Program-made: the position numbers and the translations under genes
The notes under the pieces: generated by a model
Seen by the model: the letters and a program-made list of their open reading frames with translations, nothing else
Told to the model about the DNA's origin: nothing
The model's database searches: none
Shown: positions 50,173 to 62,659 of the stretch, one piece after another
How positions within the stretch are numbered: the first letter of the stretch is position 1
How the letters are laid out: every line of letters starts with the position of its first letter
NCBI GenBank assembly: GCA_023667695.1
Contig: JAMOZY010000011.1
Coordinates: forward strand, 1-64,000
Length of the DNA stretch: 64,000 nucleotides
Reading direction: 5' to 3'
Source: Clostridium sp.
Lineage (GTDB): Bacteria > Bacillota > Clostridia > Lachnospirales > Lachnospiraceae

Positions 50173-50277
50173 AAGTATTGAAAAAAATATAAATATGAGA
50201 AATTATAAAGATAAAGAAAAGGCAGTAACACAGGAAAACTATAAGATAAAAATAAAACATTAGGAGTGGAACGGAAT

Positions 50278-50712
50278 ATGGAAACCATTGATGAACTGAG
50301 GCAGCAAAAAAAGCAGGCAGAAACCCGTCTGATATCCGAACGAAGTCGGTTGAGTCAGCTAAATGAAGTATATGAACGGCTACAGACAGCCCGGGATAAG
50401 ATAAAGAATGCAGAAACAGAGTACTTCTCTATCTATGAGTCCGCAGAAATTTATACCCGGAATCTTGTACCTGGTGATTGGGCGGGAGATACAAGGCAGC
50501 AATATGAAGATAGAATACATGACCGCCACCGTCAGGCAGTGGGTGCTATTATATATGATGTCTGCATGGACATTGAAGCCATTGAGTATAAAATGAGGCA
50601 AATGCAGGATGAGGCGGATGTATTAAATGACAGCATATACTATTGGACTGGACAGGCTGCCAGGTATCAGAACCAGATTGAATGGAGGATAAGAACGAAT
50701 GGGAACCTTTAG
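50278..50712 (+). CDS. Type VII secretion accessory protein, YwqH/DUF5082-like
   Basis: A 144-residue helical protein. Its N-terminal half is a coiled coil (about 5-45), followed by GDWAGDTRQQYEDR, a WxG-like turn, and a second long helix. This shape and its place before a WXG-size gene and an LXG protein match the Bacillus ywqH-ywqI-ywqJ order. Likely a partner or targeting factor of the effector. ATG at 50278; an in-frame GTG earlier is inside the SD. Overlaps the next gene by 14 nt. Confidence 0.72.
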   Translation: METIDELRQQKKQAETRLISERSRLSQLNEVYERLQTARDKIKNAETEYFSIYESAEIYTRNLVPGDWAGDTRQQYEDRIHDRHRQAVGAIIYDVCMDIEAIEYKMRQMQDEADVLNDSIYYWTGQAARYQNQIEWRIRTNGNL

Positions 50713-50980
50713 CTTTTATATACATGATTATCAGACAAAGCTGAATATATTAAGTACTGATATAGAAGCCATTGATGCTGCGTCTCTGCAAGTCAGCATA
50801 GAACCCAATGAATCGGATACGGTGCAGGCATATTATGACATGTACGGCCAGATATCCATGATTATAAAGAACTACAAGTGGGCATTACAGCATATGGTAA
50901 AGGATATGAAAAAAGTGGGAGAAACCATCATTGAAACGGAGCAGGATATATCTGAATTGTTCTGGACGGGAGGGGAGTAA
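50699..50980 (+). CDS. WXG100-size partner protein, YwqI/DUF5344-like
   Basis: A 93-residue helical hairpin protein. Two amphipathic helices are joined near 50; the tail ISELFWTGGE carries a Trp-x-Gly-like end. Size, fold and position suggest a small helical partner of the LXG effector. Sequence similarity to named families is weak, so the assignment rests on context. Confidence 0.65.
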   Translation: MGTFSFYIHDYQTKLNILSTDIEAIDAASLQVSIEPNESDTVQAYYDMYGQISMIIKNYKWALQHMVKDMKKVGETIIETEQDISELFWTGGE

Positions 50981-52834
50981 ATGGGTTACAATCTGAATTA
51001 CAGTTCTATACGCACGCTTCAGACTACCGTTATGGCATCTATTACCCATTGGGAAGAAGAATATAACAGTGTATATCAGGATTTGATGTCCTTTGCGGAG
51101 GAGCCTGCCTTCACCGGAGCGGGGGCAGAAGCCATGAAGCAGTACATAACGGGCATTCACCTGCCCCTCTGTCAGTCTCTTCTGACGTTTCTGGCAGAAT
51201 ATAAAGCAAGATTCGCTTTGTTTGTCAGCGGGCTTTATGAATATGATGGCAGCAAATATGCGAATCTTAACGAGGATGCCCTGCGGGAGGTGGAAGAACA
51301 GCTTCAGAGAACCGGATATGAGTTGATTGATTTTCGGACGCAGATGCTGGAAGAAATGAATGGCATTTGCGACCTTGGGGTTGAAAGTACACTGAAAAGT
51401 TCCGATACCTACCTTCAGTCACTTCAGGAAGAAATTCAGAGAAGCCAGAGTCTCCGGGACGGCGTAGGAGAATATGAGCATGCCGCCTTCCGGGAAACAG
51501 AAGGACTACAGGAACACATAGAAGAACTACTCCGGTCCGTACAGTTTCTGCGGGAACAGGGAGAAGTGGAAATCAGCAGCTATGAGCCAGGCAGTCTGTC
51601 CGGCATGACGGACCTGAGCCGGCTGCAAACATACACCGGAAACAGTTTTGCCTACCTGAGTGAAAATCAGGAGGCCATCGAGGCTGCCTATGCTCATTAT
51701 ACAGAGGTCTGGGAGGAGATTGCAGATGAAATCCGGGAGCAGAGAATCAAGCAAGGCCTCAATCTTATTAACTGGTCAACAGTGGGGATTGCAGCAACAG
51801 TACTGACCTTTGGAACATTAGGACCGGAAGCAATCTCCATGGAAACCGCCATACTTGGCTCCTTTGCCCTTGCCTTTGATATGAGCAATATGGAAGAGGG
51901 GGCATTGGAGCTGTATTATGGCTGTGTGGGAGATATCCATACAACAGCGGTCAATCCAATCCGGGATACCGTTTTCTTCGGATGGCAGGAGGGGTATGAT
52001 GTGAGCTGTATGGGAGTGAATATGGGTTTTAGTTACTATTCCACCATCGATACTATGGTGGCAGCCAGTGCGCTGAAAAAGGAACAGACAGCACAGCAGA
52101 TTGCGGAGATAAAATTTGATCTGATAAGAGAAGACTGGTTAGATGATGCGGTAGCAGCGGATTTCAAGAACACACTGGAGCTGTATGCACAGCAGAGCGT
52201 TGAGCTTGGCGCCTGTGAATCCCGGACTGAGTTCTACCGGATGTATACGGAGCGGAGCTATCTGTATAGTGATTCCTTTATTGAAGCGACAAAGCAGCCC
52301 TATCTGACGGGAGGGGCTTCCTCTGTCGTGAATCAGGACGATTTAGAAAATGCTTTTACAAGTTTTCATACAATTGGTCGTCAGGAGGGGAATTTTACCA
52401 CAAGCCTGCTGGAGGATAACCGTCTGCTTTATGACGCGGGAGGGAATCTGGTAGCACCGGACATGATAGAAACTATAAAAGGAGTAACGCCTGGAAAATA
52501 TGAAATGGGAGCGGTACAGTACTGTTATGATGCAGAGCTTGTTGCATCAGCAGAGGAGCTGGGACTGGTCCGTACGGTGGACGGCACTACCCCCGGAGCC
52601 TCCTCCCTGAATATCCCCGGGACAAGAACCTGGGCAGGGGAGAATCTGACATTCTCCGAAAGCGAGCTGCTCATGCCCGCTATCGATGTCAGTCAATATC
52701 AGGCATCGGATGTATTACTGGCATTGGAGCAGCAGGGGTATTTTGAAATCCGGAATCCCATTGTCCTGTATCCGGACGGAAGGAAAGCGGAAGCAGCGGG
52801 AACCTTTATCATAACGAGACTAGGAGGAGAATGA
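50981..52834 (+). CDS. LXG-domain polymorphic effector (type VII secretion)
   Basis: A 617-residue protein. Residues 1-200 are an all-helical LXG-type domain: FTGAGAEAMKQYITGIHLPL near 44 and YDGSKYANLNEDAL near 84 are typical. A hydrophobic Gly/Ala-rich stretch follows (about 263-300). The C-terminal 200 residues should be the toxin domain, but I recognise no known nuclease, deaminase or glycohydrolase motif. It ends YPDGRKAEAAGTFIITRLGGE. GGGAGGGG precedes the ATG, right after the preceding stop. No secretion-machine genes are in the window. Confidence 0.8.
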   Translation: MGYNLNYSSIRTLQTTVMASITHWEEEYNSVYQDLMSFAEEPAFTGAGAEAMKQYITGIHLPLCQSLLTFLAEYKARFALFVSGLYEYDGSKYANLNEDALREVEEQLQRTGYELIDFRTQMLEEMNGICDLGVESTLKSSDTYLQSLQEEIQRSQSLRDGVGEYEHAAFRETEGLQEHIEELLRSVQFLREQGEVEISSYEPGSLSGMTDLSRLQTYTGNSFAYLSENQEAIEAAYAHYTEVWEEIADEIREQRIKQGLNLINWSTVGIAATVLTFGTLGPEAISMETAILGSFALAFDMSNMEEGALELYYGCVGDIHTTAVNPIRDTVFFGWQEGYDVSCMGVNMGFSYYSTIDTMVAASALKKEQTAQQIAEIKFDLIREDWLDDAVAADFKNTLELYAQQSVELGACESRTEFYRMYTERSYLYSDSFIEATKQPYLTGGASSVVNQDDLENAFTSFHTIGRQEGNFTTSLLEDNRLLYDAGGNLVAPDMIETIKGVTPGKYEMGAVQYCYDAELVASAEELGLVRTVDGTTPGASSLNIPGTRTWAGENLTFSESELLMPAIDVSQYQASDVLLALEQQGYFEIRNPIVLYPDGRKAEAAGTFIITRLGGE

Positions 52835-53346
52835 TGAGAAAGAAGAGAGAATATGTATACAGAGAAATCTGGCTTACTACAAAATGCCAGGAGAAATATC
52901 TGGAAGCAAGGAAGAATGGACAGGCAAAGCAGTGCTTTATCGGAAGGGAACGTCAGTACCGGATGACAGAGCGGGACTCTTATTATACTGACATTTCAGA
53001 TATGAATGTAGTGCTTCTGTACTGCATTTATCCATTACATGTCAACGGACATACGGAAATCCGGGAAGAGGTTCAGGAAATCATAAAGGAGATGGCGGAG
53101 AGCAGGGATGTACTGCAGATTTATCAGGTATTCTCCCTGATTGTAAGCCAGGAAATAAAAAAGGATATTTATTCAAATCTACCAGTGGAGATTGATTTTT
53201 CAGAGGTACTGGATACCCTGTTCGCCAAGCGGGTAGAGCTGGAGGAGGAGATGAAGGCATATAAGCTGGACGGGGTAAATTCCGTTTGGAAGAGAATAAA
53301 TGATATATGCAAAGGCTCAAAGACAATCCAGGAATATATGTCGTGA
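52834..53346 (+). CDS. Candidate immunity protein to the LXG effector
   Basis: A 170-residue cytosolic, charged, mostly helical protein without known motifs. AGGAGG is 6 nt before the ATG at 52834; the stop of the effector overlaps the start. Tight coupling to a polymorphic toxin is the usual mark of its immunity gene. Fold unknown. Confidence 0.65.
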   Translation: MRKKREYVYREIWLTTKCQEKYLEARKNGQAKQCFIGRERQYRMTERDSYYTDISDMNVVLLYCIYPLHVNGHTEIREEVQEIIKEMAESRDVLQIYQVFSLIVSQEIKKDIYSNLPVEIDFSEVLDTLFAKRVELEEEMKAYKLDGVNSVWKRINDICKGSKTIQEYMS

Positions 53347-53990: not shown

Positions 53991-54011
53991 TTTGACTAAC
54001 ATTTGACTAAC
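53991..54011. repeat. 10-bp direct repeat beside the integrase stump
   Basis: TTTGACTAAC at 53991-54000 and again at 54002-54011, period 11 bp, about one helical turn. Its position between the tRNA and an integrase end fits arm-type integrase binding sites, but this is inferred. Confidence 0.5.
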
Positions 54012-54019
54012 AAAATATT

Positions 54020-54458: not shown

Positions 54459-54760
54459 ATAGAGGTCTATTCTGCCGGCTGGTTATTGTTCGGAACATAC
54501 TTAATATATCACATAGAGACAGTTAAGAATATCACACAATCATACATTAGCATAGATATACATACCAAGCAATGGACATTTTCCGTAATGATAAGCTGAT
54601 ATCACGGAAAAGAATAATCGGTACAACTCAAAGAATTCCATTGAATAGAATGTTACAATTTTAACAATTTGCAAACATTTCTGAATCATTTCAAAAATAT
54701 ATCGGCGGTAAAATGCAGATAGCAAGTGAGAAAATCAAAAAAGATTTGGAGGAATTGAAC
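54459..54760. other. 302-nt gap, no gene recognised
   Basis: AT-rich non-coding sequence between the antitoxin and the GMCM membrane protein. It contains a short inverted repeat TTCCGTAATGATA / TATCACGGAA around 54578-54608 and no clear promoter. Confidence 0.4.
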
Positions 54761-55141
54761 ATGGAAAAGAAGAATTTTGTAACCCTTATTCTCAGTACGG
54801 TTGGCGGTCTGTTGTTTGCCCTCGGAATGTGCATGGCGATGCTGCCAGAGTGGAATGCATTCATGCCTGGTATAGTGACAGGTGTTATTGGCGTAATTGT
54901 ATTGCTGATTATGATTATGGTAAGACGTAAGATGAGCGGCAAGTCTGTTTTTGTCAAGTTCAGTGGCAAAACCATCGGTACGGTTATCCTTGGCATTGTT
55001 GGTGCATTGGCACTTGGCGTTGGAATGTGTATGACTATGGTATGGGAAGGATTATTGATTCCTGGAATTGTTGTTGGAATTGTTGGAATTGTATTGCTGC
55101 TTTGCCTGATTCCGCTTTGTAAGGGCTTAAAGGACGAATAA
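54761..55141 (+). CDS. Four-TM membrane protein with duplicated GMCM-PGI unit
   Basis: A 126-residue protein made of two copies of a two-helix unit. Copy 1 has ALGMCMAMLPEWNAFMPGI, copy 2 has GVGMCMTMVWEGLLIPGI; each is followed by a Gly/Ile/Val-rich second helix. A third copy of the unit is the core of the protein at 58388. GGAGG is 8 nt before the ATG at 54761. First gene of a compact plus-strand locus with a two-component system. Function unknown. Confidence 0.75.
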   Translation: MEKKNFVTLILSTVGGLLFALGMCMAMLPEWNAFMPGIVTGVIGVIVLLIMIMVRRKMSGKSVFVKFSGKTIGTVILGIVGALALGVGMCMTMVWEGLLIPGIVVGIVGIVLLLCLIPLCKGLKDE

Positions 55142-55171
55142 GAATAAAATGCGAAAGAAGGGGTGATTACA

Positions 55172-55261
55172 ATGAAGAAAATGCTGATTCCTATTATTGG
55201 AGTAACTGTGCTTGCCCTAATTGCAGGCAGGCTGATTCATAACAGATGGACAAGACCTTGA
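55172..55261 (+). CDS. 29-residue single-TM microprotein
   Basis: AAGGGGTG lies 7 nt before an ATG starting MKKMLIPIIGVTVLALIAG and ending with the basic HNRWTRP. A short Lys start, one hydrophobic helix and a basic tail. Lies 30 nt after the GMCM gene and 10 nt before the next gene. Too short to recognise; may be a regulatory peptide of the adjacent sensor or a stabilising subunit. Confidence 0.6.
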   Translation: MKKMLIPIIGVTVLALIAGRLIHNRWTRP

Positions 55262-55271
55262 GAGATATAGA

Positions 55272-55493
55272 ATGGAAAAATCAAAATTAGTAGAAGCAAA
55301 TAAAAAGATTGCAGAAGGCGTTGTCAGCGACTATAAGAAGATTGAAAATAGCGTCGTTGGCGGTTTTACAAAGATGAGTGATAAATTTATGAATCAGTTT
55401 CTGACGCATGAAGGTGAATCTGTGGAGGATGCAAAAGCACGACTGGAACAGGAACAGACGGAGTGGGAATCTTATGCACGTTTTACCAAATGA
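55272..55493 (+). CDS. Small helical protein of the VVSxYKKIE type
   Basis: A 73-residue polar protein, no membrane segment. VVSDYKKIENSVVGGFTKM contains an internal near-repeat, and it ends with SVEDAKARLEQEQ. I have seen similar short proteins near two-component/ABC loci of Clostridia, but no function is known to me. The SD is weak (GAGATATAGA). Part of the 54.7-58.8 kb locus. Confidence 0.65.
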   Translation: MEKSKLVEANKKIAEGVVSDYKKIENSVVGGFTKMSDKFMNQFLTHEGESVEDAKARLEQEQTEWESYARFTK

Positions 55494-55723
55494 AAGGATA
55501 AAATAAAGCAACAGAAAACATAAAAAAATTGCAAGCACAAACAAAATCTTAACATTTGTGTAGTATATTATAATTAAAAAGAAAGTCGGAGAAGCATAAT
55601 CTGAAGAATGGCTGGTAAAGTGGAACTCTGCCGGAGTGAAATTCAGTGAAGAAGGGAGAAATCCTGAGGTTAGAATGCAGCTAAGTATAGATTTAACTAA
55701 TAATTATGATGTAAGGAGACAAT

Positions 55724-56398
55724 ATGTTCAAGATATTAGTGGTAGAAGATGATCGTGAACTGAATCATACCGTTTGTGCGTACTTAAGTCAAAACGGATA
55801 TGAAGCTGAGGGCTGCCTTAATGCCAACGAGGCTTACGATGCTATGTATGGCGGAACGCTTTTTGATATGATTATTTCGGACATTATGATGCCGGATGTG
55901 GATGGTTTTGAGTTTACAAAAACAGTACGGGAGCTGAATCAGGATATTCCCATTCTTTTTATGACGGCAAGGGATGATTTTGCTGCCAAGCAACGGGGAT
56001 TTAAGGTAGGCATTGATGACTATATGGTAAAGCCGATTGATTTAGATGAACTGTTGTTACGGATTGGCGCACTTTTCCGACGGGCAAAGATTATCAGCAG
56101 CCGTAAGCTGGAAATCGGTGATTTGCTGCTGGATGCAGAGGAGCATACCGCTTATTTGAAGGGGGAAGAAATCCCGCTTACCGTAAGGGAATTTAATCTA
56201 ATCTATAAGCTGTTGTCCTACCCCAAAAAAACCTTTACTCGCTCTCAGTTAATGGATGAATTCTGGGATGAAGACACATCATCAGGGCTGCGTACGGTAG
56301 ATGTATATATGACTAAGCTGCGGAATAAATTTTCAGATTGTGAAGTCTTTGAAATTGTCACCGTCCATGGTCTGGGTTATAAGGCGGTGATAAAATGA
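55724..56398 (+). CDS. OmpR/PhoB-family response regulator
   Basis: A 224-residue regulator. Receiver domain residues 1-118 with VVEDD, phosphoacceptor D53 in IISDIMMPD, Thr in LFMTARDD and Lys in YMVKPID. Winged-helix DNA-binding domain 125-224 (LTVREFNLIYKLL, RTVDVYMTKLRNK, VHGLGYKAV). Short TAAGGAG 5' of ATG. The stop overlaps the sensor kinase start (ATGA). A 15-nt motif shared with the rpmH leader lies 24 nt upstream. Confidence 0.95.
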   Translation: MFKILVVEDDRELNHTVCAYLSQNGYEAEGCLNANEAYDAMYGGTLFDMIISDIMMPDVDGFEFTKTVRELNQDIPILFMTARDDFAAKQRGFKVGIDDYMVKPIDLDELLLRIGALFRRAKIISSRKLEIGDLLLDAEEHTAYLKGEEIPLTVREFNLIYKLLSYPKKTFTRSQLMDEFWDEDTSSGLRTVDVYMTKLRNKFSDCEVFEIVTVHGLGYKAVIK

Positions 56399-57504
56399 GA
56401 GATAAGGATAAAAGAAAAACTATAACGCATTGGCTGTTTGTCATCCAGCGAGGCATTACCTTTTTTTTATTGATATCCTTTGTTGTCACCTGCTGTATGC
56501 TTTTATTTTTGAATGTCATGACTCCACATATGGGTATTGCTTTAACGGAAGAGAATATTAGTAGTGCAGCCAAGATTACTTTTGTTAATGTAGTATTAAT
56601 TAGTCTGATTTGCACGCTGATAGACGGTATCCGAAGAAAATTTATGATTGATCGTCCGGTCCGGCACATCATAAATGCTGCGGAAAAAGTAATGGAGGGA
56701 GATTTTTCAGTGCGTATTCAGCCATTTCGAAGCATGGATAGTCAGGATGGCTTCAATATCATTATTAAATATTTTAATCAAATGATAGAAGAATTGGACG
56801 GAATAGAAACCCTACGTACAGATTTTATTGCCAATGTGTCTCATGAATTGAAAACACCACTTGCTATTATACAAAATTATGGGACAATGCTGCAGCAAAA
56901 AGAGCTGCCGGAGGAAAAAAGGCTGGAATATGCAAAAGCCATTACCGATACTTCCCGAAATCTTGCGGATTTGATTACGAATATTTTGAAACTGAACAAG
57001 CTGGAAAATCAGGAGATTTATCCAACTGCGTCGGAGTATAATTTAGGGGAACAGCTTTGTGAATGTTTGCTCCTATTTGAAGATGCATGGGAACAGAAGG
57101 GTCTGGAGATTGAAACGGATATTGAGGAAGATGTGACCATTCATGCTGACGGGGAGATGCTTTCACTGGTTTGGAACAATCTGTTTTCTAATGCTGTCAA
57201 GTTTACGGAATCCGGTGGGAGGATTTCCGTATCCTTAAAAAAAGAGAAGGACTTTGCTATTATTAAAGTGGCGGATACTGGCTGCGGAATCAGTAAGGAG
57301 ACTGGGGTGCATATGTTTGAAAAATTCTATCAGGGGGATACCTCTCATGCGACGAAGGGAAATGGCTTGGGACTTGCCCTGGTAAAACGGGTTATGGATA
57401 TTACTGGAGGGAATATTTCGGTGGAAAGTGAATTAGGCAGGGGCAGCGTATTTATTGTAAAAATCAGGAGAAAAGACCGATGGAACGATTCAAGCATATC
57501 CTAA
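56395..57504 (+). CDS. Sensor histidine kinase
   Basis: A 369-residue membrane kinase. Two membrane segments (about 18-42 and 60-80) frame a short external loop of under 20 residues, so it probably senses membrane state or a partner protein. HAMP follows (about 83-135), then HisKA with H150 in NVSHELKTPLAI, N-box NNLFSNAVKFT, G1 ADTGCGI, F-box FEKFYQGD, G2 GNGLGLALVK. Its end overlaps the next membrane protein by 25 nt. Confidence 0.93.
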   Translation: MRDKDKRKTITHWLFVIQRGITFFLLISFVVTCCMLLFLNVMTPHMGIALTEENISSAAKITFVNVVLISLICTLIDGIRRKFMIDRPVRHIINAAEKVMEGDFSVRIQPFRSMDSQDGFNIIIKYFNQMIEELDGIETLRTDFIANVSHELKTPLAIIQNYGTMLQQKELPEEKRLEYAKAITDTSRNLADLITNILKLNKLENQEIYPTASEYNLGEQLCECLLLFEDAWEQKGLEIETDIEEDVTIHADGEMLSLVWNNLFSNAVKFTESGGRISVSLKKEKDFAIIKVADTGCGISKETGVHMFEKFYQGDTSHATKGNGLGLALVKRVMDITGGNISVESELGRGSVFIVKIRRKDRWNDSSIS

Positions 57505-58385
57505 AAAAAGCATTCTTTCTGCCGCCGCTTCCTACGGTACTGATTGCTTTTCCATCCTTTACCATGGTATTTTGTGTTCTTGGTATGAAAATAGATGGTG
57601 TGATTGCCTATGTCTCTTATACTCTGTCTGCTTATGCGATGATTATTACCATAACCGGATTTACTCGTATTGTACAAGCTGTCCGCAGAGGGATTAATCG
57701 GCATCCTCTTATGAAGAAAGTGCTGGCGCATCCCTTGGGCGGACGGTATTTAACGGATGTGATTTTTCGGGCGGAGGTATCCCTTTATCCAAGTCTGGTT
57801 ATTAATATGCTGTATGCTATTATGAAAATGGTTTCTGGGATTTTATATGAATCGATATGGTTTATTACCCTAGCCGTTTATTATATGTTACTTGCCATCA
57901 TGCGGTTTCTGTTGCTTTATTTTGCCCGAAAGAAAAGCATCAAGGCTGATATTACGGCGGAGTTTAAGCAATATCGTATTTGCGGTGTGTTGCTTGCATT
58001 TATGACCCTGGCATTGTCCGGCATGATTCTTTTTATCGTTCGTCAGGACGGCGGATATGATTATCCTGGTATATTGATATATGTCATGGCTATGTATGCT
58101 TTTTATACAATGATTACAGCGGTAGTTAATGTTATCAAGTTCCGCAGACATGGCAGTCCGGTTCTCTCTGCTGCAAAGGCAGTTAATTTGACATCTGCAT
58201 TTGTTTCCATGCTTGCACTTGAAACTGCCATGCTCAATCAGTTTGGTTCAAAGGACGATTCGTTATTCCGGCAAGTTATGACAGCATCTACGGGTGCAGT
58301 AATCTGTGGATTTGTTTTTGCAATGGCCGTTTATATGATTATTCATGCGACAAGACGATTGAGAAAATTGGAAAGGAGTCGGTAA
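57480..58385 (+). CDS. Polytopic membrane protein of the two-component locus
   Basis: A 301-residue protein with about seven or eight hydrophobic segments. MERFKHILKKAFFLPPLPT begins cytosolic and basic; no transporter or protease motif is visible. It overlaps the kinase gene by 25 nt, so it is translated in a fixed ratio with it. I do not recognise a named family. Role as accessory sensor, channel or target of the regulator is inference. Confidence 0.75.
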   Translation: MERFKHILKKAFFLPPLPTVLIAFPSFTMVFCVLGMKIDGVIAYVSYTLSAYAMIITITGFTRIVQAVRRGINRHPLMKKVLAHPLGGRYLTDVIFRAEVSLYPSLVINMLYAIMKMVSGILYESIWFITLAVYYMLLAIMRFLLLYFARKKSIKADITAEFKQYRICGVLLAFMTLALSGMILFIVRQDGGYDYPGILIYVMAMYAFYTMITAVVNVIKFRRHGSPVLSAAKAVNLTSAFVSMLALETAMLNQFGSKDDSLFRQVMTASTGAVICGFVFAMAVYMIIHATRRLRKLERSR

Positions 58386-58387
58386 AA

Positions 58388-58762
58388 ATGGAAGAAAAGG
58401 AGGAAACCTTTACCTATAATTACTCTGCCGATGATCAAGCGGAGATTAAAAAAATCCGGGAGAAGTATATTCCCCAAGAAGAAAATAAAATGGAGCAGCT
58501 ACGCAGGCTGGATGAAAGTGCAACAAAACCTGGTATGATTACTGCGCTGTTGATTGGAATTATCAGTACGCTTGTCATGGGTTTGGGTATGTGCTGTACC
58601 ATAGTTTGGGCAGAAAGCATGTTTATTCCCGGTATCATCATTGGCATGGTTGGCATAGCTGGTATAGTAGCTGCATATCCTATTTATTCTCATATGACGA
58701 AAAAGCGTCGTGAAAAGCTGGCGCCGGAGATTATTCGACTGACAGATGAATTGATGAAGTGA
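58388..58762 (+). CDS. Membrane protein with one GMCC-PGI unit
   Basis: A 124-residue protein. A cytosolic acidic/basic helix (1-50) containing DDQAEIKKIREKYIP precedes two membrane helices with MGLGMCCTIVWAES and FIPGIIIGMVG, homologous to each half of the protein at 54761. A basic TKKRREKLAPEI tail follows. It starts 2 nt after the polytopic gene. The locus is thus bracketed by two paralogous small membrane proteins. Confidence 0.75.
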   Translation: MEEKEETFTYNYSADDQAEIKKIREKYIPQEENKMEQLRRLDESATKPGMITALLIGIISTLVMGLGMCCTIVWAESMFIPGIIIGMVGIAGIVAAYPIYSHMTKKRREKLAPEIIRLTDELMK

Positions 58763-58797: not shown

Positions 58798-58835
58798 GAA
58801 GAAAGCGAAATCAGCAGAATGATTTCGCCTTCTTC
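58798..58835. terminator. Terminator after the two-component locus
   Basis: GAAGAAAGCGAAATCA and TGATTTCGCCTTCTTC form a 16-bp stem with one mismatch and a 6-nt loop. It closes the plus-strand locus and faces the minus-strand small gene beyond. Confidence 0.75.
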
Positions 58836-58897: not shown

Positions 58898-59065
58898 TTA
58901 AGCTCCGCCCGGACCATCCTTCCGGGGACGGGTAGATTCCGGTAAAGGTTCTACGCTGTTTGAGGACTTATCCGTTTGATCGCCCTGGGAGGTTTTCTGC
59001 TTTGGCAAATCGATATCCGGAATATTTCCATCGTCATAGAGGTTGTTTGCATTTTTATCTGACAT
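58898..59065 (-). CDS. Small disordered protein, 55 residues
   Basis: Below usual gene-calling size but with AAGGAAGG 8 nt before the ATG and a hydrophilic sequence: MSDKNANNLYDDGNIPDID, then Gln/Ser/Pro-rich text ending RPRKDGPGGA. No fold expected. It lies about 130 nt downstream of dinB on the same strand and could be co-transcribed with it. Function unknown. Confidence 0.55.
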   Translation of the reverse strand: MSDKNANNLYDDGNIPDIDLPKQKTSQGDQTDKSSNSVEPLPESTRPRKDGPGGA

Positions 59066-60687: not shown

Positions 60688-60730
60688 CTTTGACAAAAAA
60701 GATTAAATTTCTACAAAGGAGGTGACACGT

Positions 60731-60904
60731 ATGAAGGTTGTTAATCCGGCAGGAAGAAATATGGAAACCGAGCAGCAGGCAGATTACTCTTTAAGAATGA
60801 GATGTAAGTGTTCTGGCGGTGCAGTTGCCAGCAGCAATACGAACAGCTGTGCCTGTGGCAGCTCCCCTGCTATCGTACAGACCAACGTATATTCAACTCC
60901 GTAA
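60731..60904 (+). CDS. Cys-rich RiPP precursor peptide
   Basis: A 57-residue peptide. A polar leader (about 1-22, with METEQQADYS) precedes a core with two CxC motifs: RCKCSGG and CACGSS, separated by an Ala/Ser/Asn-rich stretch, then a Thr/Tyr/Pro tail. AAAGGAGGT is 7 nt before the ATG. It is followed by a radical SAM/SPASM enzyme and an ABC exporter. Likely thioether or similar crosslinks on Cys. The closest named class I can suggest is the clostridial Cys-rich bacteriocins with CcpM-type maturases; not proven. Confidence 0.8.
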   Translation: MKVVNPAGRNMETEQQADYSLRMRCKCSGGAVASSNTNSCACGSSPAIVQTNVYSTP

Positions 60905-60980
60905 TAAATGGAGATTGCTTCTTAGATAGAAGCATTGTACCAACAAGGATATACGAAACCTGACATTGTACATGCAGGAG

Positions 60981-61009
60981 CCGGGCTGCAGCCATTTGTT
61001 GCAGCCCGG
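60981..61009 (+). terminator. Hairpin between RiPP precursor and maturase
   Basis: CCGGGCTGCA GCCATTTGT TGCAGCCCGG: a strong 10-bp GC stem followed by only TTTAT. A partial terminator that could keep precursor in excess over maturase. Confidence 0.65.
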
Positions 61010-61126
61010 TTTATACAGGCGGTGAATCCAGGTATCGTCGGATTGGCAGATGGTAAGAATAAAAGGTTTGCAAAAGCTGTTATAGCTCGTTTCTATGGGT
61101 GATTAGGTAAAAATGGAGGTATACAA

Positions 61127-62659
61127 TTGGATAAGCAGATAGAACAATTTAATGCATATTTTAAGGATATCGTAACAGATTCTATTGACCGATACGGGAT
61201 TCCCTTTGCTACAGAAAACTATAAGTATTTTTATGATACCGGTACAGGAAAGGTCTTACAGTGCGCAGAACCAACCTATCATCTGATATGTAATTTATTT
61301 GAAAATCAGGGAGCAGTAAATCCGGAGCAGCTGAATCTAAAGGAAGAAGAGTTCCTGTGTGCGGTTGATGAGCTGAAGGATGCCATTGAAACAGAACACA
61401 TTTTTAAAGCACAAAAATTTGACCGGTTTATTTGTACCCAGACTACGGATTTGGAAAACAAGGTTGGAAAGGCATGTCAGCAATTAATTCTGGAAGTAAC
61501 AGAAAAATGTAATTTGAGATGCCGGTATTGCATCTATGGTGATGAAACAAAGAATTTCAGAACCTTTGATACAAGAGATATGACCTTTGAAACAGCAAAA
61601 AAAGCAATGGATTATGCTTTAAGTATTGCTGACGACGAGATGGCTTTAGCCTTTTATGGCGGAGAACCGTTAATACAGTATTCATTAATGAAAGAATGTA
61701 CGGATTATTTTAAAGAGAGGTACAAAGGAAAAAAACTGTCACTGGTATTTACCAGTAATTTAACCTTGCTGACAAAAGAAATGGCGGATTATTTTAGTGA
61801 AAATAAATTTATGGTGACCTGCAGCCTGGATGGTGATTCGGAGAGCCATAATGAAAACCGGGTGTATTGTGGCGGAACCGGTTCCTTTGATGATACGATA
61901 CGGGGCTTAAAGCTGCTGGTAGAGGCTTATGGAGAGGATGCCAAAGAACATATTGCGGTCAATACGGTAATTGATAATCCTTTTTCTATAGAAAAATTCG
62001 AGAGGATAAATGACTTTTTTCATAGTCTGTCATGGCTTCCTAAGGATATGATTATCCGGGTTTCTTACGCAGCAAAGGATAAATGGAGTGAGGATACAGG
62101 GTTATCTGCGAATATAGAGTTAATGAAAAATAAAATGGTATTAAATGATTCATTTGTTGAATGGCTTTTTGATAAGGTAAGAAAACAGGATTCGAGGGTG
62201 TTTTCTGACAATCTTTTGAAAGAATCATTGATGGATATACATAAACGGGCGATAACGGATGAACCGTTGGAGGATTGTATTTTAAATGGCTGCTGTGTAC
62301 CCGGAACCAGGCGGTTGTATGTCAGAGTTGACGGAAAATTTTCTGTATGTGAAAGAATTGGCTGTTCTCCGGATATTGGAAATGTAGAGGAAGGAATCAG
62401 CCTGGAAAAAATAAAAAAGTATTATGTGGATGATTACGCAGAAAAATCTATAAATAATTGCAGCAATTGCTGGGCCGTTCAATTATGCGGCGTATGTTAT
62501 TCCAGATGCTTTGATGAAAACGGATTAGATAGGAAGCGGAAAAAGGTCTTATGTGAGAATAACCGGTTTGTTTTATATAATGCATTACGGCGATATCACA
62601 TGCTGTTAGAAGAACATCCGGAAATGTTAGAGGAATATAATGAAATCGAATTTAGCTAA
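61127..62659 (+). CDS. Radical SAM/SPASM peptide maturase
   Basis: A 510-residue enzyme. An N-terminal region (1-100) resembles the peptide-recognition part of RiPP maturases. The radical SAM cluster is CNLRCRYC (C128, C132, C135). The C-terminal SPASM region has paired cysteines: CCVPG, VCERIGC, CSNCWAVQLCGVC and VLCEN, enough for auxiliary Fe-S clusters. Start is TTG, with TGGAGGT 6-7 nt upstream. Expected to install thioether or C-C crosslinks in the Cys-rich peptide. Overlaps the transporter start by 20 nt. Confidence 0.88.
   Translation: MDKQIEQFNAYFKDIVTDSIDRYGIPFATENYKYFYDTGTGKVLQCAEPTYHLICNLFENQGAVNPEQLNLKEEEFLCAVDELKDAIETEHIFKAQKFDRFICTQTTDLENKVGKACQQLILEVTEKCNLRCRYCIYGDETKNFRTFDTRDMTFETAKKAMDYALSIADDEMALAFYGGEPLIQYSLMKECTDYFKERYKGKKLSLVFTSNLTLLTKEMADYFSENKFMVTCSLDGDSESHNENRVYCGGTGSFDDTIRGLKLLVEAYGEDAKEHIAVNTVIDNPFSIEKFERINDFFHSLSWLPKDMIIRVSYAAKDKWSEDTGLSANIELMKNKMVLNDSFVEWLFDKVRKQDSRVFSDNLLKESLMDIHKRAITDEPLEDCILNGCCVPGTRRLYVRVDGKFSVCERIGCSPDIGNVEEGISLEKIKKYYVDDYAEKSINNCSNCWAVQLCGVCYSRCFDENGLDRKRKKVLCENNRFVLYNALRRYHMLLEEHPEMLEEYNEIEFS

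Follow-up and report, generated by a model that had tools for sequence, protein, structure and literature searches.

We report that a group of membrane-protein genes around a two-component system (TCS) is, as judged from genome comparison, a conserved yet undescribed gene set of gut Clostridia, whose regulator very probably governs both its own operon and a second operon through a common operator. The locus lies in the 64,000-nt stretch of Clostridium sp. contig JAMOZY010000011.1 (GCA_023667695.1, forward strand) that was analysed here, hereafter the window, and encodes an OmpR-type response regulator (RR), a sensor histidine kinase (HK), a polytopic membrane protein (POLY), two membrane proteins with GMC hairpins (GMCM1 and GMCM2) and a small soluble protein, p73 (Table 1). 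We consider it fairly probable that this is a membrane-response locus, with one half for sensing and the other for output, affording protection of the Lia kind. The analysis defines an unnamed regulatory unit of many gut Clostridia, together with its predicted operator and output operon, and sets the probable sensor partner, GMCM2, apart from the probable output, GMCM1, p73, and POLY.

An operator predicted at two promoters

Comparison of upstream regions without a prior motif returned AACTTTAACA as the strongest word for RR and TTAACATTTC for GMCM1/p73, the element being a direct repeat of AACAWW with an exact period of 11 bp. After dereplication, this period separates AACAWW pairs in 33/79 promoters of GMCM1/p73 and in 38/105 of RR, compared with 0-4 for unrelated spacings, and the GMCM1/p73 set has further peaks at spacings of 22 and 33. 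A position weight matrix trained on RR promoters alone, with recognition set at the 1% null threshold, recognises 47 of 68 GMCM1/p73 promoters in loci with both TCS and POLY, 6/10 of those in which the operon stands alone, and none of five in TetR contexts. Its three best matches in the window lie at 55538, in the RR promoter, and at 54661 and 54672, in the GMCM1 promoter; the RR site is a training site, and the GMCM1 promoter, whose matches rank second and third at 15.8 and 12.9 bits, lies outside the training set. Stand-alone GMCM1/p73 operons of other genomes also have these repeats ahead of them, and in the window a TATAAT sequence is found at 55569-55574, downstream of the RR operator repeats. 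Operators of OmpR/PhoB-type regulators typically consist of tandem 11-bp repeats, and the regulator described here combines a receiver and a winged helix with tandem direct repeats of this period. Because the operator repeats are common to the RR promoter and the GMCM1/p73 promoter, the GMCM1/p73 operon is the predicted output of the system, where an earlier reading of the DNA, made from its letters only (the sequence-only reading), had seen no known output; the RR operon is likewise predicted to be autoregulated.

The sequence-only reading had also arranged the genes in a single run. All of them lie where it had placed them, on the + strand, and the ATGA overlap of RR with HK and the 25-nt overlap of HK with POLY are correct, whereas POLY and GMCM2, thought to overlap by 2 nt, are separated by a gap of 2 nt (58385 to 58388). 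Since ~230 nt separate the p73 stop codon from RR, and the predicted RR operator sits in that interval, the run is probably divided into two transcription units, the GMCM1/p73 unit and the RR operon. The RR leader has no Rfam match for a structured RNA, and its folding energy is ordinary (z=-1.1). Across the window's own genome, the exact two-repeat pattern has 12 matches compared with 13 in the reversed control, and for this reason no regulon wider than the two sites of the locus is claimed. A third exact two-repeat match, AACATTTGACTAACAAAA at 53998-54015, is flanked by a tRNA gene and a small - strand open reading frame (ORF); it is not a top match of the matrix, and may be due to chance.

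Table 1. Features of the locus, in window coordinates (TM, transmembrane helix; CDF, cation diffusion facilitator).
Feature	Position	Strand	Description
Predicted GMCM1/p73 operator	54663..54691	+	three 11-bp direct repeats at 54663, 54674, 54685 (AACAATTTGCA AACATTTCTGA ATCATTTC)
GMCM1	54761-55141	+	4-TM protein; 2-TM unit with GxGMC motif, duplicated in tandem
Putative 29-aa single-TM peptide ORF (MKKMLIPIIGVTVLALIAGRLIHNRWTRP)	55172-55261	+	
p73	55272-55493	+	small soluble protein; amphipathic 11-residue repeats, consensus KKIEEGVVGGY
Predicted RR operon operator	55540..55557	+	AACAAAATCTT AACATTT, two 11-bp repeats
Response regulator (RR), OmpR type	55724-56398	+	receiver and winged helix; Response_reg 2e-24, Trans_reg_C 9e-19
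Sensor histidine kinase (HK)	56395-57504	+	two TM helices, HAMP-like linker; HisKA 2e-14, HATPase_c 1e-25
POLY	57480-58385	+	8-TM; residues 101-294 a probable remote relative of the CDF 6-TM core
GMCM2	58388-58762	+	cytosolic N-terminal part, then one GMC hairpin
Terminator-like stem-loop, 3' of the operon	58805-58828	+	consensus match only; 5 found vs 3.4 in shuffles

Synteny, regulator exchange and a proposed division of the locus

Synteny was counted in the best 80 POLY loci from GTDB genomes, which were scanned with a narrower POLY alignment because the broad seed alignment was too diverse; a POLY relative was encoded in 476 of 517 pattern-matched stretches, a lower bound for GTDB genomes in that the scan required conserved peptide patterns. 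A TCS lies <=4.5 kb from POLY in 75/80 of these loci, nearly always in one of two fixed orders that recur across many genera, namely RR-HK-POLY-GMCM2 (type A, 37/80, to which the window belongs) and POLY-RR-HK-GMCM2L (type B, 35/80), and GMCM1 and p73 are present in 61/80 and 51/80, respectively. The gene set is accessory, with POLY relatives in 47/299 genomes of the host family, 3/8 of the host genus and 10/399 of a phylum-wide draw. So patchy a spread might be expected of chance neighbours with no common function, but POLY and GMCM1 occur together in 27/299 family genomes where 5.8 were expected (p=8e-18), GMCM1 and p73 in 31/299 where 5.1 were expected (p=1.5e-27), and the co-occurrence p values, none of them corrected for shared ancestry, span 1e-14 to 1e-27. 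Furthermore, the true neighbours of the locus in the window (a Y-family polymerase, a radical SAM gene and an LXG toxin set) are not kept in related loci. With the two fixed orders and the common operator added, the probability of a chance assembly appears negligible, and that explanation is in practice already refuted by synteny and operator. The assembly into one system that the sequence-only reading had proposed, and for which it had looked to conserved synteny, is upheld by this recurrent, co-conserved set. Searches of plasmids gave no match to POLY or GMCM1, and searches of phages gave none to the locus. Only RR and HK are recognised by Pfam and NCBIfam, which hold no model that matches GMCM1, p73, POLY, or GMCM2 at cut-off, and the system is likewise absent from the literature searched (open-licence full texts), in agreement with the earlier statement that no described system has this composition.

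The membrane proteins are also found under a regulator of another type. Outside the host family, four loci (L259-L262, in our numbering) contain a divergent TetR gene and GMCM1-POLY, with p73 following in L260 and L262; within it, TetR lies beside GMCM1 in L059, L075, L198, and L203. L053 is a further TetR case. The TetR proteins examined carry TetR_C_8, the RR operator occurs in 0/10 TetR-context promoters, and a CAACTGTTG or CAACAGTTG palindrome lies upstream of GMCM1 in 5/8. That GMCM1, p73, and POLY are found under TetR without a kinase suggests that these membrane proteins are a payload and not only parts of a sensor, and on this comparative evidence they are best read as output. It is possible, though we would put it below an even chance, that they form a portable membrane-protecting cassette, composed of a CDF-fold protein without a metal site, a synuclein-like 11-mer protein and a duplicated GMC-hairpin anchor, which is plugged into a TCS or a TetR repressor according to lineage. 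The window's own genome holds a second copy (L038; G000:C51, 134-5870), comprising a GMCM2-like gene, a TetR gene and a POLY core of 213 aa. Adjoining genes for an MBL-fold hydrolase, an adenylating enzyme related to F390 synthetase and a ketosynthase of FabH type look like a small biosynthetic set.

GMCM2 behaves differently. Intramembrane-sensing histidine kinases have two TM helices, and the loop between them (~25 aa or less) cannot accommodate a sensor domain. HK, with intact HisKA and HATPase_c domains and a loop of ~20 residues between helices at ~21-41 and 60-79, has the architecture of this class; the "almost no external loop" of the sequence-only reading is a fair description. Downstream of this kinase, GMCM2 or the longer GMCM2L is present in 96/96 pairs with enough contig, four of them without POLY, although this count is partly ascertained, the kinase loci having been collected mainly through POLY and GMCM1. 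Because GMCM2/2L is constant behind the kinase, even without POLY, GMCM2 is its likeliest partner, and we infer that the two are in contact. The sequence-only reading had gone further, in that the kinase might sense through its neighbouring membrane proteins at large; in its full form this would have POLY and the GMCM proteins gate the kinase, in the manner of SaePQ on SaeS or LiaF on LiaS, with the true output elsewhere in the genome. The short loop, the overlapping HK and POLY frames, the constancy of GMCM2/2L and the precedent of SaeQ, which is small, has four TM helices and serves an intramembrane-sensing kinase as accessory protein (PMC5083920), are all compatible with such gating. Yet the kinase-free GMCM1, p73, and POLY genes under TetR regulators, the stand-alone GMCM1/p73 operons behind an RR operator, and the four kinases with GMCM2/2L in the absence of POLY argue that gating suits GMCM2 better than POLY, and we regard the full form as unlikely. 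Sensing through a neighbour is plausible for GMCM2, whereas GMCM1, p73, and POLY look like output.

The proposal that the two end genes are paralogues is supported by matches of GMCM2 to each half of GMCM1 (E=1.1e-7 and 5.7e-5), and by its sequence GMCM1 is a tandem duplication of a two-helix unit. Its structure is predicted as four helices (model pLDDT 76), for which Foldseek returned no meaningful PDB match (best E 6.4). Weak Pfam matches of GMCM2 to claudin and to DUF2207_C fall below cut-off and are inconsistent, and both assignments were rejected. The GMCM2L proteins of type B loci measure ~187 aa and have an additional soluble N-terminal part; in loci of this type, L081 and L082 among them, it follows the pattern YEYKEI...DGYENFGW...LKRxRK, has no Pfam match, and presumably recalls DUF4177-like folds. 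In p73, the hydrophobic moment over 33 residues is 0.486 at 98 degrees, compared with a mean of 0.265 in shuffles, of which a fraction of 0.0015 reach or exceed the observed value. We take the geometry of its 11-residue repeats to resemble that of synuclein- or apolipoprotein-type repeats; the likeness lies in the 11-residue period and the amphipathic 33-residue stretch, and as no homology was detected it is an analogy of repeat geometry only. Tiny TM ORFs comparable to the putative 29-aa peptide precede p73 in L046, L149, and L200.

POLY and the CDF family

Several comparisons relate POLY to the CDF family. Cation_efflux (PF01545) is the sole Pfam family matched by more than one of 37 POLY members (six members, best 5e-6), the POLY of the window scoring 17.2 bits, below the Pfam cut-off of 26.6. 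Alignment to a CDF profile of 43 rows from related genomes (hhalign) gave P=5.9e-7 over 186 columns and a score of 54.8, compared with 10-22 in 20 column-shuffled controls; the relationship became clear once 43 rows were used, the probability with three CDF rows having been 2.6%, and the POLY sequence profile has no match when searched against PDB. With an AlphaFold2 model of POLY (pLDDT 72, pTM 0.68), every one of the first 20 PDB matches by Foldseek is a CDF zinc transporter (probability 0.99-1.00, TM ~0.4-0.5, best E 2.8e-3). It is thus highly probable that POLY is a remote CDF relative, which would constitute the first structural assignment for an unannotated membrane family, as kin of the CDF proteins that lack their metal site.

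Likeness to CDF proteins (YiiP, ZnT1, ZnT7, ZnT8) extends over residues 101-294, corresponding to the 6-TM core, in both profile and predicted fold, whereas two additional TM helices at the N-terminus, replaced ligands and the lack of a cytosolic domain set POLY apart. The ligands of CDF TM2 and TM5 (HxxxD/DxxxD) fall on Y134, L138, V235, and S239, so that all four are replaced, the second TM2 position (aspartate) having been placed by ungapped continuation beside an alignment gap. Tyr134 is invariant in 37/37 diverse and 60 closer members, L138 is Leu in 34/37, V235 is Ile, Val, or Leu, and S239 is mostly Ala across members, with Asp in 7/37 distant ones. Moreover, POLY ends at residue 301, right behind its last TM helix, and so has no cytosolic C-terminal metal-binding domain, and POLY genes lie mostly near TCS, TetR, or GMCM genes and not near metal genes. 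Because the ligands are replaced and the cytosolic domain is absent, POLY is unlikely to be a conventional metal transporter. The sequence-only reading had counted membership of the polytopic protein in a well-described family as evidence against its proposal; a remote relationship to such a family was indeed found, but to one whose metal-site residues and cytosolic domain POLY does not share.

The relationship to CDF, together with conserved cysteines (POLY C168 in 27/37 and C276 in 24/37, the GMC motifs and a CC pair in HK TM1), could also be taken to indicate metal or thiol homeostasis, in which POLY would be a divergent but active CDF-type exporter with other ligands, such as the conserved cysteines, and the locus would answer a metal or a thiol-reactive compound. 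We consider this improbable, given that other residues occupy all four of the usual ligand positions, that the metal-binding domain is missing, that no metal gene is conserved nearby, and that the swapped versions use TetR_C_8 regulators and not metal sensors. As a separate observation, all membrane proteins of the system have conserved Cys near or in their membrane segments, at positions ~33-34 of HK, in the GMC(C/M) hairpins, and at the two POLY sites.

Proposed response and its relation to known systems

We propose that HK, with GMCM2 as a constant partner in the membrane, would detect changes in or at the membrane and phosphorylate the OmpR-type regulator, which may then bind the AACAWW repeats before its own operon and before the GMCM1/p73 operon. 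Phosphorylated RR would raise expression of both operons, activation being presumed over repression. GMCM1 may serve as a 4-TM anchor that recruits p73 as a peripheral amphipathic-helix protein, and POLY, as a CDF-related 6-TM protein minus its metal site, could have a channel-like or scaffold role. The output proteins might protect or restructure the membrane under envelope stress, a role in which stress as the signal and protection as the effect are both conjectural. By analogy, membrane protection or restructuring, similar to that of LiaRS in the absence of homology, is the likeliest role, and the narrower attribution to envelope stress is tentative, at slightly less than an even chance. 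If the latter were true, the locus would represent another Lia/Psp-like response, in commensals whose envelope biology is largely unstudied.

In Bacillus subtilis, the LiaFSR-LiaIH system comprises a TCS that induces a small operon for a membrane anchor (LiaI) and the effector LiaH (PMC9239133). The locus resembles this arrangement in that a TCS is associated with a small operon for an anchor and a peripheral membrane protein, and in the accessory membrane protein beside the kinase. No homology was detected, however, and the regulator is OmpR-type whereas LiaR is NarL/LuxR-type; p73, a 73-aa protein of 11-mer repeats, does not resemble PspA, GMCM1 consists of a GMC hairpin in duplicate, and a CDF-related protein is additionally present. 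Pfam and NCBIfam searches found no PspA/LiaH or PspC/LiaF domain in p73, GMCM1, GMCM2, or POLY. With SaePQRS of Staphylococcus aureus (PMC5083920), the locus has in common a short-loop kinase, co-encoded accessory membrane proteins, a regulator of direct-repeat-binding type and autoregulation (the last two predicted here). SaeP is a lipoprotein, the output differs, and the cassette described here is also found under other regulators. We know of no case in which SaePQ occur under other regulators. Neither Pfam nor NCBIfam matched any of the locus proteins to the accessory proteins of Sae, SaeQ itself not having been compared by profile. In distinction from BceRS-type modules, no BceAB-type ABC transporter adjoins; the locus has no ABC transporter, as the sequence-only reading had noted, and its recurrent partners are GMCM, POLY, and p73. 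By the features tested, the locus appears to be a member of neither LiaFSR-LiaIH nor SaePQRS; the nearest functional analogue would be LiaRS with LiaI anchoring LiaH, and, for the accessory protein on the kinase side, SaeQ. Systems in which a TCS answers to the envelope and drives membrane proteins are already known as a kind; the parts of this one are unnamed.

Several points weigh against this interpretation. The operator is a prediction from sequence, and a clear repeat is missing in 13/64 linked promoters without TetR in the locus, some of which are explained by misassigned gene starts. The 96/96 association of kinase and GMCM2/2L is subject to the ascertainment described above, and POLY, which lies within the kinase operon in most genomes, would suit a sensing role as well. 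The POLY model is moderate and the Foldseek E-values weak. Further, the analogy with Lia is one of composition and wiring only, and a cassette driven by TetR may serve another purpose.

Other features of the window were noted in passing. On the - strand, 58898-59065 encodes a 55-aa ORF that ends in RPRKDGPGGA and has no Pfam or NCBIfam match. A type VII secretion gene set of LXG type occupies 50266-53346, with two small helper-like ORFs (weak WXG100, DUF5344) and an LXG protein of 617 aa whose C-terminal domain is an NAD glycohydrolase (PF07461, 5e-54); an IFS-family immunity gene (PF16718, 5e-37) adjoins the latter. Lastly, 60722-62659 encodes a maturase of the radical SAM/SPASM type with a relationship to the RumMC maturases of sactipeptides (E 1e-157, short of the equivalog cut-off), 5' of which a small Cys-rich ORF (60722-60904; CKCSGG...CACGSSPA) looks like its precursor peptide.

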